From: Coriobacteriia bacterium
GTDB lineage: Bacteria > Actinomycetota > Coriobacteriia > Anaerosomatales > SLCP01
Assembly (NCBI GenBank): GCA_030603745.1
Contig: JAUVXE010000008.1
Span: 1 to 64,000, forward strand
DNA length: 64,000 nt
Reading direction: 5' to 3'
In this document: positions 13,014-18,680 of the stretch, one piece after another
Position numbering within the stretch: position 1 is the first letter of the stretch
How the letters are laid out: each line of letters begins with the position of its first letter
Notes under the pieces: generated by a model
Databases searched by the model: none
Seen by the model: the letters and a program-made list of their open reading frames with translations, nothing else
What the model was told of the DNA's origin: nothing
Position numbers and translations under genes: made by a program

Positions 13014-15161
13014 ATGACGGACCGTCCAGACGACGCGCTGCTCCACGCCGTGTTCTCCGGCAAGGAGTGGCGTGAGGCAGCCGATGCCATGTTCGAGGTC
13101 GCCGGTGCGGCGATCGTCGTCAGCCTACCCTCCGACGGCAGCGCGCTCTATGCTTCGCCGAGGTGCGCGTACTGCGCGCTGATCCATCCCGCCGAGGGGG
13201 TGGGGATGACGGGCGGCTGGGGGTGCCTCGGCAGGACCGGCGAGGTCGGGACGGGTGCGACCACATGCTTCTCCGGCCTGCCCTGTCAGGTCGCTGCCGT
13301 GAGCTACACCGGTGTCCAGCTGGCGCACCTGACCGTGGGAGGGTTCGTCTCGACCACGCGCGAGCGCAAGCGGATGTTCGAACGCCTGCTCTCCCTCGGC
13401 GTCGCCGAGGCCGATGCGTGCCACGCGGTGCGCGACATCCCGGTCGTCCCGCGCAGGAAGGCCGAATCGCTCGTGACCGCCCTGCGCGTCCACGCCGAGA
13501 GTCTCATCGCGCGGGCGTACGAGTCCCGGGGGTCGGCCGACCGGATGCGGGAGCTCGAGGTCTTCCTCGACGCTGGCCGCGAGTTCCTCGAGCTCGGGCA
13601 CGGTGAGGACGAGCTCGAGCACCGCATCCTCGCGCGGGCGCTCCTCGTCGTGGGAGCCGAGCGGGGGCGGCTCGTCCTCCGGCGTCCGGGCACGGACCTG
13701 GCCGACGTGGTCGCGGTCGCCGGCGAGAGCGACGGTCTCGTGGAGGGCGACGTGCTCAGGCTCGGGGAGGTCGTCGAGGGTCGCGTGCTCGCGAGCGGCA
13801 ACAGCGTCATCGTCACCGGCCGCGAGGGGACGGAGGCCGGGCGAGCCGGCCGCGGCGAGACCGCGACGGTGTCGATCGGCCTGCGGCGGCCCGAGGGCTG
13901 TCTCGGCGCCTTCACGATCCACGGCGTCGTCACGCACGGGCCTGCGACGCGCGAGGCGATGCGGCTCCTCGAGCGGTTCGCGACCGTCGCGGCGACGGTG
14001 CTCGAGAACACGCGGAGCGACCGCGAGGCCCGTCGCTCGCTGCGCGAGATGGTGCACCTCGACGCCTTCGCCCGCACGCTCGCGGCGTGCTCCACGTGCG
14101 ACGAGGTCGCCGAGGTCGCCATACCGGTGCTGCACCACATCCTCGACGCGGGCGTGTGCGGTATCGCGCTCACCGCGTGGCGCCTGGACAAGGTGCACGT
14201 CAGTGTCTATACCACCGTCACGCGCGAGGTCCTCTCGGCGGTGATCGGCGAAGCCACCGGCCGGGACGTCGCCGCCGAGCCGTTCGCGGCCGTGCGCGCC
14301 ACGACGGTCGGCGGGGAGATCCTCGACGCCGCGGACGGTGACCACGCGACCGCCGGCGACGCGGACGGCCCCGTGCTCTCGGTGCCGCTCTCGGTCCGCG
14401 GGACCGTGGTCGGCTACGCCTTCGCCGCACTTCCCTCGGCGGGCAGGTTCGTCGCCGCCGACCAGCGCGGCGTGGAGTCGGCGACGGCACACATCGCGTG
14501 CGCCCTCGACCGCGCGGCCGAGTGGGAGCTGCTGCGGGCCGACCACGCCAAGACGATCGCGGCGCTCGCGGCGGCCCTCGACTCCGCCGAGCGGGTGGAC
14601 CGTGGCCACACCGACCGCATCGCCGAGTACGCGATCGCCCTCGGCCGCGAGCTCGGCCTGCCCTCAGACGAGCTCCGCTCGCTGCACTTCGCCGCGGTCG
14701 TGCACGATATCGGGACGGTCGGGGTGGACGCCCGCCTGCTCGACAAGGCCGGCCCGCTGACCGCCGAGGAGCGCGCGGAGGTCCAGCGGCACGTGCACGT
14801 GGGGGCGGACATCATCGGCCAGTTGCAGTTCCTCGAGGACGTCACGCCGGTCGTCCGCCACCATCACGAGCGCTGGGACGGGTCCGGCTACCCCGCGGGG
14901 CTTGATGGCGAGCGCATCCCGATGCTGGCGCGGCTGCTGGCGGTCGTCGACGCGTTCGACGCGATGACGTCGCCGAGGCCCTACCGGCCGCAGTTGACCC
15001 TGGCCGAGGCACGCGCGGAGCTCGCGCGCGGCGCGGGAACGCAGTTCGACCCGGGCGCGGTCCAGGCGTTCGTGGCGGTGCTGGACCGGCAGGCGCTCGC
15101 GGGGATGACCGGACTGCTCGCGACCCGGCACGCCGGTGACGGGCGACACCTGCCCGCCTGA
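13014..15161 (+). CDS. Soluble PocR-like/GAF/HD-GYP protein with altered HD motif
   Basis: A 715-residue cytoplasmic signalling protein without membrane segments. The N-terminal region (about 20-165) resembles PocR sensory domains and is cysteine rich (C51, C54, C71, C85, C91), which could mean metal, haem or Fe-S ligation. GAF-like segments cover about 180-340 and 345-505. The HD-GYP domain (about 515-700) keeps RGHTDR, VHDIG (H564, D565), RHVHVGA, HHHERWDGSGYP and VVDAFDAM. The usual Lys after HDIG is Thr (T568), where the other HD-GYP protein in this window has K603. The metal ligands are present but catalysis could be altered. It stands alone between the two-component pair and the transporter gene. 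Confidence 0.85.
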   Translation: MTDRPDDALLHAVFSGKEWREAADAMFEVAGAAIVVSLPSDGSALYASPRCAYCALIHPAEGVGMTGGWGCLGRTGEVGTGATTCFSGLPCQVAAVSYTGVQLAHLTVGGFVSTTRERKRMFERLLSLGVAEADACHAVRDIPVVPRRKAESLVTALRVHAESLIARAYESRGSADRMRELEVFLDAGREFLELGHGEDELEHRILARALLVVGAERGRLVLRRPGTDLADVVAVAGESDGLVEGDVLRLGEVVEGRVLASGNSVIVTGREGTEAGRAGRGETATVSIGLRRPEGCLGAFTIHGVVTHGPATREAMRLLERFATVAATVLENTRSDREARRSLREMVHLDAFARTLAACSTCDEVAEVAIPVLHHILDAGVCGIALTAWRLDKVHVSVYTTVTREVLSAVIGEATGRDVAAEPFAAVRATTVGGEILDAADGDHATAGDADGPVLSVPLSVRGTVVGYAFAALPSAGRFVAADQRGVESATAHIACALDRAAEWELLRADHAKTIAALAAALDSAERVDRGHTDRIAEYAIALGRELGLPSDELRSLHFAAVVHDIGTVGVDARLLDKAGPLTAEERAEVQRHVHVGADIIGQLQFLEDVTPVVRHHHERWDGSGYPAGLDGERIPMLARLLAVVDAFDAMTSPRPYRPQLTLAEARAELARGAGTQFDPGAVQAFVAVLDRQALAGMTGLLATRHAGDGRHLPA

Positions 15162-15187
15162 CCGGCCCGAGGGGCGTGTGGTAGAAT
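15158..15187 (+). promoter_or_regulatory. Predicted promoter for the queT-like/hydrogenase-GGDEF unit
   Basis: CTGACC (15158-15163), 18-base spacer, TAGAAT (15182-15187). It lies 30 bases before the TTG start of the transporter gene. No preQ1 riboswitch was recognised in the leader, which would be very short. Confidence 0.5.
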
Positions 15188-15216
15188 CCGCGCACTTCGA
15201 CTCGGGGGAGCCACCG

Positions 15217-15822
15217 TTGAACAGGACTCGCTACATCGCCCAGGCGGGAGTCATCGCCGCGGTGCACGCCGCCGCCACCATCGCCGTGCTGCAGATGCCC
15301 GCGCAGCTCGGGTGGGGGCCGATCCAGCTGCGCGTGAGCGAGGCGCTCACCGTGGTCGCGCTCTTCACCCCGGCCGCGGTCCCCGGACTCACTCTCGGGA
15401 CGGCGGCGGCGAACGCCGTGCTGGTCGCGCAGGTGGGCCCGGTGGGCCTGCTCGACGTGCTCTTCGGCTCGCTGGCGACGCTGCTGGGGGCCGTGTGGAC
15501 GTGGCGGTTCCGTCGTCGCCGGATGCTCGCGCTCGCGGGCCCGGTCATCGCCAACGCGCTCATCGTCCCGGCCTACCTTCCGTTCGTCCTCGCGGCGCTC
15601 GGCTTCGCCCAGGAGCCGTTCTTGGGAATAGATGTGAGCAGTGGCTGGTTCGCGGCGTACGCGGTCGGGGTCGTCACCGTGGGCCTCGGCCAGGCGGTCG
15701 TCCTCTACGGTCTTGGACTGCCGCTTGCGACGATGCTCGGCCGCATCGACCTCGCCGGCCTTGCCGGCGGCACCGGGGACGGGCGGAAGGGCGGAGAGGT
15801 CCGCTGGCGATGGAAGCGCTGA
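15217..15822 (+). CDS. queT: QueT family (queuosine-precursor type) membrane transporter
   Basis: A hydrophobic protein of 201 residues with about six membrane segments. The N-terminal pattern IAQAGVIAAVHAAAT and the segments LRVSEALTVVALFTP and GTAAANAV fit the QueT/DUF988 family, the S component of energy-coupling-factor transporters linked to queuosine precursors. No ECF A or T components are adjacent. The TTG at 15217 was chosen because gggggag stands 6 bases before it; in-frame GTG 15178 would lie upstream of the -10 box. The stop overlaps the next gene by 13 bases. Confidence 0.75.
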   Translation: MNRTRYIAQAGVIAAVHAAATIAVLQMPAQLGWGPIQLRVSEALTVVALFTPAAVPGLTLGTAAANAVLVAQVGPVGLLDVLFGSLATLLGAVWTWRFRRRRMLALAGPVIANALIVPAYLPFVLAALGFAQEPFLGIDVSSGWFAAYAVGVVTVGLGQAVVLYGLGLPLATMLGRIDLAGLAGGTGDGRKGGEVRWRWKR

Positions 15823-17645
15823 ACAGGGACGGGAACGGACGCGAGGTGACCTCCCCGGCTGGGGACCCCGCGACCCGGGGGTTTCTCATCGAGAGCTCCC
15901 CGGGGCGCTGCCTCGCGTGCTGGGCGTGCGTCCGCGCGTGCCCGGCACGCGCGATCCGGGTCGTCGACCACCGCGCGGAGATCGTCGAGGACCGCTGCAT
16001 CGAGTGCGGCGCGTGTGTCGGCGTGTGCGGGAGGGACGGCCACGTCGTGCGGGACGACCTTCCGCACGTGCGCGACCTCCTGGCGAGCGGCCGGCCGGTG
16101 GTGGCGCTGCTCGCGACCGAGTTCGTGGCGGCGATGCACCCGGCCACGCCCGCCGAGGTCGAGCGCGCGCTCGAGCGAGCGGGCTTCTACGCGGTCGAGA
16201 CCACCCTCCTCGGCGAGGAGCTCGTCGCGCTCTCCTACGAGCACGCGCACGCGCGCGCCACGGCGCCGGTGGTGTTGCGCTCGACCTGTCCGGTCGCCGT
16301 GTCGTGGGTGCGGCGGTTCCGGCCGTCGCTGGTTGGCGCGCTCGCGCCCATCATCCCGCCCTACATCGCTCAGGCGCGGCTCGTGCGGGCCCTCTATCCC
16401 GCGGACGTCGCCATCGTCTACGTCTCGCCGTGCTACGCGCGCAAGGACGAGATCGCCGATCCGCAACTCGCGGGGGCCGTCGACGTCGCGATCGACTTCG
16501 AGGAGCTCAAAGCACTCATCGGCTCGGCCGCCACGCCGATGGCGGCCGTCCCGCCGCCGTGCTCTGGGTCGCGACGCCCGGCGCCCGTGAAGGAGCTCTC
16601 GCTCACCGACGGCTACCCGCGCCGCACCCTTGTCGAACACGACATGACCTCGCAAGACGTCGTGGCGGTCCGCGGCGTCAAGGCCATCGACGACCTGCTC
16701 GGCGCGGTCGAGCGGGGGGAGGTCGGCCCACTCGTGGTCGATATGCTCTACTGCGACGGGTGTGTCGACGGTCCCGCGACCGGCTCGGAGCTGTCGGTCT
16801 TCGCGAAACGGACGGTGCTCGCCAACGCCGGCCGCGCCACGCCCCGGACCACGGTGGACACGCGCAAGCTGCTCGCGCATCTCCCGGCGGTGGAGACCGT
16901 CCGCTCGTTCACGGCGTCCCCCGCACTCATGCGGGTGTTCGACGACGCCCAGATCGATGCGTGCCTCGCCGAGGGGGAGTTCGAGAGCCGCGACGTGCTG
17001 CTCGACTGCGGGGCATGCGGCTACGAGACGTGCGTCGAGCACGCGGTCGCGGTCCTCGACCACGATTCGACGTGGGACATGTGCTTCCCGCTCCAGCGCA
17101 AGCGTCTCGAGCGGACGAACGAGGCCCTCGAGCGCTCGGCCACGCTCGACTCGCTCACGGGCCTGTGGAACCGGCGCGTGTTCTCGGAACGGCTCGAGGC
17201 CGAGGTGGCGCGAAACGCCCGCTACGGCACGGACGTCACGCTGCTCATGATCGACCTCGATGCGTTCAAGGAGGTCAACGACGGCTACGGGCACACCGTC
17301 GGGGACGCGGTCCTCGGCGAGGTCGCCCGCATCATGCGCGACACGGTCCGCGAGACCGACGTACCGGCGCGCTACGGCGGCGACGAGTTCGCACTCATCC
17401 TGCCCGGTATCGGCAAGACCGCCGGCTACGCGGTCGCCGAGAAGCTGCGCGCCCTCATCGCCGCCGCGGCGGTGCCCACGGACGGCGCGCGTGGCGGTGA
17501 CACGGTCTCGACGACCGTCTCGGTCGGGCTCGCCTCGGCGGGGGGGAGCACGACCAGCGCCTCGTCACTGGTCGAGGCGGCCGACCGGGCCCTCTACCGG
17601 GCCAAGGCGCACGGGCGTGACCAGGTCAGGATCGCACCGGACTGA
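15810..17645 (+). CDS. Ferredoxin/[FeFe]-hydrogenase-like/GGDEF fusion (putative redox- or H2-sensing diguanylate cyclase)
   Basis: A 611-residue fusion. Residues 34-73 bind two [4Fe-4S] clusters (C34, C37, C40, C44; C63, C66, C69, C73). Residues about 95-370 are a hydrogenase large-subunit C-terminal-like domain: the L1 motif is reduced to STCP (C160; the first Cys of TSCCP is Thr), L2 is SPCYARKDE (C208), and L3 is DMLYCDGCVDGP (C315, C318; C-x2-C, not the catalytic C-x3-C). This short form resembles what I recall of sensory (group C) HydS-type proteins. A third cluster motif (C400, C403, C408, C425) follows. Residues 445-611 are GGDEF with an intact GGDEF site (523-527) and an RxxD inhibitory site (R514-D517). 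I infer c-di-GMP synthesis controlled by electron flow or H2. ATG 15810 has ggagagg 10 bases upstream. Confidence 0.87.
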   Translation: MEALNRDGNGREVTSPAGDPATRGFLIESSPGRCLACWACVRACPARAIRVVDHRAEIVEDRCIECGACVGVCGRDGHVVRDDLPHVRDLLASGRPVVALLATEFVAAMHPATPAEVERALERAGFYAVETTLLGEELVALSYEHAHARATAPVVLRSTCPVAVSWVRRFRPSLVGALAPIIPPYIAQARLVRALYPADVAIVYVSPCYARKDEIADPQLAGAVDVAIDFEELKALIGSAATPMAAVPPPCSGSRRPAPVKELSLTDGYPRRTLVEHDMTSQDVVAVRGVKAIDDLLGAVERGEVGPLVVDMLYCDGCVDGPATGSELSVFAKRTVLANAGRATPRTTVDTRKLLAHLPAVETVRSFTASPALMRVFDDAQIDACLAEGEFESRDVLLDCGACGYETCVEHAVAVLDHDSTWDMCFPLQRKRLERTNEALERSATLDSLTGLWNRRVFSERLEAEVARNARYGTDVTLLMIDLDAFKEVNDGYGHTVGDAVLGEVARIMRDTVRETDVPARYGGDEFALILPGIGKTAGYAVAEKLRALIAAAAVPTDGARGGDTVSTTVSVGLASAGGSTTSASSLVEAADRALYRAKAHGRDQVRIAPD

Positions 17646-17657
17646 TCGGAGGCGACG

Positions 17658-18680
17658 ATGCGCACCGCAGCGCTCTGGCAGGCCGAGGAGGGCCGCGTCC
17701 GGTGCGCGCTCTGCCCGTGGCGCTGCCTCATCGCCGAGGGACACGCAGGGGTCTGCGGCGTGCGGGTCAACGTCTCCGGCCGGCTCGTCGCCACCACGTA
17801 CGGCACGGTCTCCTCGGTCGCGGTGGACCCGATCGAGAAGAAGCCCGTCTTCCACTACCGTCCCGGCTCGGCGGTGCTCTCGCTCGGGAGCGTCGGGTGC
17901 ACGATGCGCTGCGGCCACTGCCAGAACTGGCGGATCAGCCGCGCGCGGCCGGACGACGGGTCGGTCCCTTCGCGGCAGCTCGAACCCTCCGACGTCGTCG
18001 CCCTCGCCCGCGAGCACGGGTGCCCGGGGGTGGCCTTCACCTACAACGAGCCGGTCATCTGGGCCGAGTTCGTGCGCGACGTCTCCGAGCTCTGCCGCGC
18101 CGAGGGGCTCTTCACCGTGATGGTCACGAACGGCTACATCACGCCCGAGGGACTGGACTTCCTCGGCGAGTGGATCGACGTCTGGCGCGTCGATGTCAAA
18201 GGGGCGACCGACGAGGTCTACCGGGAGCTCTGCCACGTGCCCTCGCCCGGGCCCGTGTTCGCCGCAGCGGAGCGCGCGAAGGAGCGGTGGGGGATGCACG
18301 TCGAGGTCGTGACCAACGTGGTGCCCACGGTCAACGACGACCCGGACCAGATCCGCGCGATCGCGCGCTGGATCGTCGGCGTCCTCGGGCCGGACACGCC
18401 GTGGCATCTTACCCGCTTCATCCCCTACCTCGACTTCTCGCACCTCGAGCCCACGCCGGTCGAGACGCTGCGCGAGGCCGCCGGCATCGGGCGGGAGGAG
18501 GGGGTGCGCTTCGTCTACCTCGGCAACGTCTCGGAACCGGGCGCCGAGGACACCGTCTGCCCCCGCTGCGGGGCGACGGCGATCGCGCGGAAGGGGTACA
18601 CCATAGTGAAGCACACGACGCGCGACGGAGCGTGCGCGCGGTGCGGGACGGGGCTCGGGATCGTCGGAGAGGGGGCGTGA
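17658..18680 (+). CDS. amrS: AmmeMemoRadiSam-type radical SAM enzyme
   Basis: A 340-residue radical SAM protein of the pyruvate-formate-lyase-activase-like group named for the AmmeMemoRadiSam system. The cluster-binding motif is CTMRCGHC, preceded by the N-terminal CALCPWRC segment and the family's GVCGVRVN. A C-terminal CPRCG...C..C pair suggests a small zinc-ribbon end. The usual partner genes (MEMO1- and AMMECR1-like) are not in this window. It follows the hydrogenase-GGDEF gene after 12 bases, and its TGA stop overlaps the next ATG by 1 base. The reaction of this family is not well established. Confidence 0.87.
   Translation: MRTAALWQAEEGRVRCALCPWRCLIAEGHAGVCGVRVNVSGRLVATTYGTVSSVAVDPIEKKPVFHYRPGSAVLSLGSVGCTMRCGHCQNWRISRARPDDGSVPSRQLEPSDVVALAREHGCPGVAFTYNEPVIWAEFVRDVSELCRAEGLFTVMVTNGYITPEGLDFLGEWIDVWRVDVKGATDEVYRELCHVPSPGPVFAAAERAKERWGMHVEVVTNVVPTVNDDPDQIRAIARWIVGVLGPDTPWHLTRFIPYLDFSHLEPTPVETLREAAGIGREEGVRFVYLGNVSEPGAEDTVCPRCGATAIARKGYTIVKHTTRDGACARCGTGLGIVGEGA

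Follow-up and report, generated by a model that had tools for sequence, protein, structure and literature searches.

The window analysed here is a 64,000-nucleotide stretch of DNA from a Coriobacteriia bacterium of the order Anaerosomatales. It encodes a protein in which an [FeFe]-hydrogenase-like region is fused to a GGDEF domain. The fusion gene, its parts and its neighbours are as follows.

13014-15161, + strand: gene for a PocR-GAF-HD-GYP protein (Pfam), a probable c-di-GMP phosphodiesterase, encoded two genes ahead of the fusion
15136-15822, + strand: gene for a QueT-like transporter (Pfam PF06177), with a 13-base overlap with the fusion gene
15793-15799, + strand: GGAGAGG, a ribosome-binding-site-like box ten bases upstream of the ATG at 15810 (sequence)
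15810-17645, + strand: FeFe-hydrogenase-like/GGDEF fusion gene (P0001), 611 amino acids (open reading frame, Pfam domains, orthologues)
15897-16037, + strand: 2[4Fe-4S] ferredoxin domain with cysteines 34, 37, 40, 44, 63, 66, 69 and 73 (Pfam Fer4 dicluster, amino acids 30-76)
16098-16775, + strand: H-domain, Fe_hyd_lg_C (Pfam PF02906, amino acids 97-322, E 3e-27, 96 bits)
16281-16292, + strand: loop L1, S158 T159 C160 P161, with T159 at the position of CpI C299, the proton-transfer cysteine (alignment)
16425-16451, + strand: loop L2, S206 P207 C208 Y A R211 K D E214, with R211 at the position of CpI K358 (alignment)
16740-16775, + strand: loop L3, D311 M L Y C315 D G C318 V D G P, with a CX2C motif (alignment)
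17001-17090, + strand: FeS domain, C400-x2-C403-x4-C408-x16-C425 (Pfam PF04060, amino acids 398-427)
17085-17144, + strand: signalling helix 426-445, from C425 into the GGDEF domain (AlphaFold2 model, pLDDT about 90 here)
17139-17624, + strand: GGDEF diguanylate cyclase domain (Pfam, amino acids 444-605, E 3e-45, 154 bits)
17349-17360, + strand: RETD (RxxD), amino acids 514-517, inhibitory c-di-GMP site (sequence)
17376-17390, + strand: GGDEF catalytic motif, amino acids 523-527 (sequence)
17658-18680, + strand: gene for an AmmeMemoRadiSam system radical SAM enzyme (TIGR04337, 309 bits), 12 bases downstream of the fusion

An initial annotation had described one chain made of a 2[4Fe-4S] ferredoxin, an H-domain, a third Fe-S motif and a GGDEF domain with I-site. 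The reading frame and motifs bear this out, and Pfam returned Fer4 dicluster, Fe_hyd_lg_C, PF04060 and GGDEF. NCBIfam matches to FeFe_hydrog_B1 (117 bits) and FeFe_hydrog_A (48 bits) were both under the cut-off. Foldseek searches with the AlphaFold2 model (mean pLDDT 85) paired its N-terminal region with structures of D. desulfuricans hydrogenase (DdHydAB 8ryh, E 4e-17) and HydA1, and its C-terminal region with PleD, WspR and DgcB. No PAS domain was matched by Pfam, and in the model helix 426-445 leads directly into the GGDEF domain. Judged from its sequence, the output domain carries an intact diguanylate cyclase motif, and cyclase activity is predicted for it. The protein ends in RIAPD after the GGDEF domain, and the C-terminal tryptophan targeting signal of Nar1/CIAO3 is absent. 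Its H-domain is the single one above the cut-off in the window's genome.

Of 69 genomes sampled from the window's order, 63 had an orthologue, nearly always with one match each and mostly at 47-66% identity. The 29 best order orthologues are all full-length fusions with the same domain order, so the fusion is no product of chance or assembly; we ruled out both, as it is kept across families and phyla. The architecture, for which a survey had been proposed, was also present in other actinobacterial classes and in the Gemmatimonadota. Of 366 genomes sampled across the actinobacterial phylum, 33 matching genomes lie outside the window's order, and the 20 of these that we inspected carried 18 GGDEF fusions and 2 kinase fusions. 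Among Gemmatimonadota, the fusion's family was detected in 82/395 genomes at E 3e-68 or better. In our trees, all GGDEF fusions share one origin (100/100) and adjoin kinase-fused sensory hydrogenases (support 98/86 in a smaller set, bootstrap 88-95 in a larger one), and on this evidence the GGDEF fusion is an old family with a single origin. Stand-alone group A and group-D-like sequences sat on long branches, and only the placement beside kinase-fused members was relied on. The phylogeny thus agrees with the initial assignment to putative sensory [FeFe] hydrogenases, beside kinase- and PAS-fused members, with the label group C resting on motif and architecture, as the trees held no HydDB reference sequences.

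The surroundings of the fusion are the QueT and AmmeMemoRadiSam genes, with no hydrogenase operon. Across 20 order genomes inspected, the order RR-HK-(PocR-HD-GYP)-QueT-[fusion]-AmmeMemoRadiSam-DsbA-glycosyltransferase was mostly held: the QueT-like gene was the upstream neighbour and the AmmeMemoRadiSam gene the downstream neighbour in 20/20, and the PocR-GAF-HD-GYP gene was present in about half. Several fusion loci in other actinobacterial classes have an aspartokinase, Asd, AmmeMemoRadiSam or an HK2-LytTR pair close by. The AmmeMemoRadiSam gene is conserved beside the fusion even in some of these classes.

Alignment of the H-site confirmed the four [4Fe-4S]H cysteines named initially, C160 in L1, C208 in L2 and C315 and C318 in L3, together with threonine in place of the first L1 cysteine and a shortened L3. 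Catalytic relatives have one more residue in this last loop, which in the window protein reads CX2C instead of their CX3C. In the HydF-positive, kinase-fused L174 and L175, L3 reads LCCNGC, and the extra cysteine is absent from the window protein. For that reason we also considered that L3 is merely shifted and not shortened, and rejected this, as counting to C318 from the D/E before it gave a true one-residue shortening in both the window protein and L174/L175. K358 of CpI contacts a cyanide of the [2Fe] site. At this position all 31 order orthologues have arginine, versus lysine in each of the ten related hydrogenases and sensors used for comparison. The lysine is retained in three actinobacterial fusions (L231, L232 and L234), which suggests that other members of the family may be genuine H2-sensing cyclases. 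The four H-site cysteines and T159 were retained in 31/31 order orthologues, in which all 16 Fe-S ligands are invariant, and all four H-site cysteines were held by 49/49 actinobacterial fusions examined. Identity within the order is 65% for the H-domain versus 53% for the GGDEF domain.

According to PMC12752695, all three maturases are needed for H-cluster assembly in vivo. The general Fe-S machinery suffices for the cubane half, and the [2Fe] half requires HydE, HydF and HydG (PMC6212873 and PMC12752695). Our maturase test covered HydF and HydG, neither of which was found in the window's genome (98.5% complete). HydF was detected in 0/69 order genomes, while the same search picked it up in 70 genomes elsewhere in the class, and HydG was detected in 0/17 order genomes tested. 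The HydG negative is weaker than the HydF negative because in the HydF-positive genome G300 the HydG model reached no more than 57 bits. There (G300:C32:11672-13954), HydF adjoins a highly divergent HydG-like gene (57 bits, 20% identity), which means that HydG models may miss Coriobacteriia versions. None of the 82 Gemmatimonadota genomes carrying the fusion's family had HydF. Among all 395, HydF was found in two, G406 and G414, which have no GGDEF fusion at the family's score and carry kinase-fused relatives instead; the HydF-positive, kinase-fused L174 of this phylum sits between HydA and HydE-HydG-HydF. The HydF genome searches spanned the window's class and the Gemmatimonadota; for other actinobacterial classes blast covered the fusion neighbourhoods (9-20 kb), where the lack of maturases is weak evidence. 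As the known assembly line for the [2Fe] centre is missing in these bacteria, the protein is probably an iron-sulfur redox sensor. It had been proposed that the fusion turns H2 or redox state straight into c-di-GMP: the redox half of this proposal survives, while the H2 half is not supported, given the maturase searches and the arginine.

We then compared the two phyla for retention of the sites. In 42 Gemmatimonadota fusions examined in detail, a non-random sample of best hits and selected divergent ones, four H-site cysteines were present in 13, one or none in 29, and two or three in 0. This all-or-almost-none pattern is what would be expected of a discardable cluster site. The Cx2Cx4Cx16C site was intact in 41 of these 42, in 31/31 order orthologues and in 18/18 other actinobacterial fusions. 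The eight ferredoxin cysteines were present in 31/31 order orthologues and retained in 36/42 Gemmatimonadota, where the remainder were mostly gaps at sequence ends, and the motif in the latter was GGDEF in 41 and GGDEM in one. The hydrogenase domain model of Pfam still matched a relative with zero H-site cysteines at 46.6 bits, and the predicted fold of this relative was confident (pLDDT 88). The order shows the opposite, fixing the H-site while GGDEF varies: in 11/31 orthologues, which form family f2 (L097, L099, L101, L102, L104, L105 and L109-L113), the GGDEF motif is degenerate (VADQF, TGDQF, GDRF) with RxxD retained. These orthologues are possibly c-di-GMP receptors rather than cyclases. 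The near-invariant core of the family is the ferredoxin and the FeS domain.

We propose, with a probability of roughly 0.6, that the window protein descends from a hydrogenase, does without the maturases and couples the sensing of redox state or oxidants by Fe-S clusters to c-di-GMP. The sensor half would be a retired [FeFe] hydrogenase that presumably lacks [2Fe], and the signal would be an altered redox state, oxidative damage or the occupancy of its Fe-S clusters. These clusters, chiefly the C425-ligated one where the signalling helix starts, would set the geometry of the GGDEF dimer. The signal would travel from C425 through helix 426-445, a step suggested by the structural model, to the GGDEF dimer and switch c-di-GMP synthesis, and RETD would give product inhibition. 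The absence of HydF, the arginine at the K358 position, the CX2C form of L3, the discarded H-site with a kept FeS site and the non-hydrogenase locus all point to this reading. Eukaryotic Nar1, which is without [2Fe] because maturases are lacking (PMC12621388), offers a precedent for a hydrogenase-like protein of this kind. In TamHydS, the redox state of the C-terminal cluster is unaltered by H2 (PMC13104023), which fits poorly with a C-terminal cluster relaying H2 and has no bearing on other signals. Against our reading, the strict retention of four H-site cysteines in Actinomycetota indicates that the site matters there, and the degenerate GGDEF in 11/31 order orthologues indicates that cyclase activity is no constant output. 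The lysine at the K358 position of L231, L232 and L234 also counts against it, and maturation by some other route is conceivable. For the family as a whole, we see slightly better than even odds that an [FeFe]-hydrogenase sensor was stripped of its organometallic cofactor and remade, at phylum depth, as an Fe-S redox sensor that drives a diguanylate cyclase directly. This would be a bacterial counterpart of Nar1, and living relatives would show stages in the decay of the hydrogenase site.

One alternative, drawn from the initial annotation, is a genuine H2 sensor: H2 would bind to an H-cluster carried by the H-domain, and the resulting change of state would drive c-di-GMP synthesis. The four H-site cysteines in 49/49 actinobacterial fusions and the HydF-positive kinase-fused sensors in the sister group are consistent with this; group C/D enzymes sharing the loss of Cys299 still turn over H2, as does TamHydS, which shares the Met353-to-Ser change (PMC8163306), and cultured relatives from OPB41, to which the window's order probably corresponds, oxidise H2, via [NiFe] enzymes (PMC9686372). 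With HydF in 0/69 and HydG in 0/17 order genomes, with arginine in 31/31 and a CX2C L3, and with relatives that retain the remaining architecture without any H-site cysteine, we nevertheless judge an H2 sensor very unlikely. The same cysteines could hold a cubane that itself senses O2, NO or iron status, with the ferredoxin and FeS domain being structural and the protein acting as a bacterial Nar1-like sensor of cluster occupancy. Their strict conservation in the window's order despite the missing maturases argues for this, as does the Nar1 precedent. However, the site is gone in 29/42 Gemmatimonadota fusions while FeS, ferredoxin and GGDEF remain, so that the cubane cannot be the sensor in that branch, and we consider this explanation unlikely. 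The stepwise loss of the H-site in Gemmatimonadota and the degenerate GGDEF of family f2 would also suit an N-terminal part that is a structural relic or a docking platform (for a redox partner, for example), with a cyclase that is constitutive or otherwise regulated. We give this little credence, since the H-domain is better conserved than GGDEF within the order and invariance of 16 Fe-S ligands in 31/31 orthologues is unexpected of a relic.

The window protein can be compared with several described proteins. Nearest in the tree are the group C putative sensory [FeFe] hydrogenases (T. maritima HydS, M2f; HydDB C1-C3), which share the plan of ferredoxin, H-domain, Cx2Cx4Cx16C cluster and signalling module and likewise lack Cys299. 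Their known outputs, however, are PAS/kinase, chemotaxis or phosphatase modules and not GGDEF, and most related group C genomes here are HydF-positive, whereas the window protein has arginine at the K358 position, a CX2C L3 and no PAS. In HydDB, group C enzymes are kinase-, chemotaxis- or phosphatase-linked, and the only diguanylate-cyclase class is [NiFe] group 2c (PMC5037454); this putative class also ties a hydrogenase to c-di-GMP, but with a [NiFe] enzyme of unrelated fold. A full-text literature search, with most subscription papers outside its coverage, gave no relevant report of an [FeFe] hydrogenase with GGDEF or c-di-GMP, in line with the initial annotation, to which no characterised direct GGDEF fusion was known. 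Group D putative sensory enzymes (TamHydS, M2e) share the Cx2Cx4Cx16C C-terminus, and serine replaces Met353 in TamHydS (PMC8163306), compared with S206 in the window protein. Unlike the fusion, TamHydS has no fused output domain and is catalytically active once given [2Fe]; the short group-D-like proteins L127, L129 and L134 branch apart from the fusions. Nar1/CIAO3/IOP1 are similar in being hydrogenase-like, with Fe-S clusters, no [2Fe] and no maturases (PMC12621388). They differ as eukaryotic Fe-S assembly factors with neither a Cx2Cx4Cx16C domain nor GGDEF. Some bacterial hemerythrin-domain sensors are linked to c-di-GMP enzymes, but these are diiron proteins, neither Fe-S-based nor hydrogenase-derived. 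As redox or oxygen sensors they resemble the fusion in coupling iron-based sensing to signalling enzymes (PMC9388753). Because the group C plan and descent come with absent maturases and no PAS, a better name for the protein than sensory hydrogenase is hydrogenase-derived Fe-S diguanylate cyclase.

The signalling route of sensory [FeFe] hydrogenases is unsettled (PMC13104023), and their label as H2 sensors rests on their domains. The fusions provide a natural series, in which sensor and output, a simple enzyme, share one chain and the hydrogenase site is intact, reworked or gone; this makes each cluster's share in signalling directly testable. Domain matching may score a 'sensory [FeFe] hydrogenase' in genomes without any H-cluster, and looking for HydF is an easy way to screen for this. 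In the widespread anaerobic order of the window, the fusion suggests a conserved connection by which redox state acts on c-di-GMP.

Other sensors and H-domain relatives were observed during these searches. The Gemmatimonadota operon L235 (G406:C176:5000-21438) reads HydA, kinase-fused FeFe sensor, response regulator, HydE-like, HydG and HydF, with HydA and HydE named by eye from sequence, and is a good candidate for genuine H2 sensing. In genome G309, of the window's class, an FeFe sensor is fused to PAS, histidine kinase and receiver domains (L128:156-3107, - strand); neither HydF nor HydG was found in this genome, and L128 is another possible maturase-less sensor. Finally, L176-L181 of the Gemmatimonadota (for example L178:1151-2827, + strand; 24.5 bits to PF02906) are stand-alone, strongly diverged H-domain relatives without ferredoxin or GGDEF, which have proline-rich tails and, in several cases, a C-terminal hydrophobic stretch.
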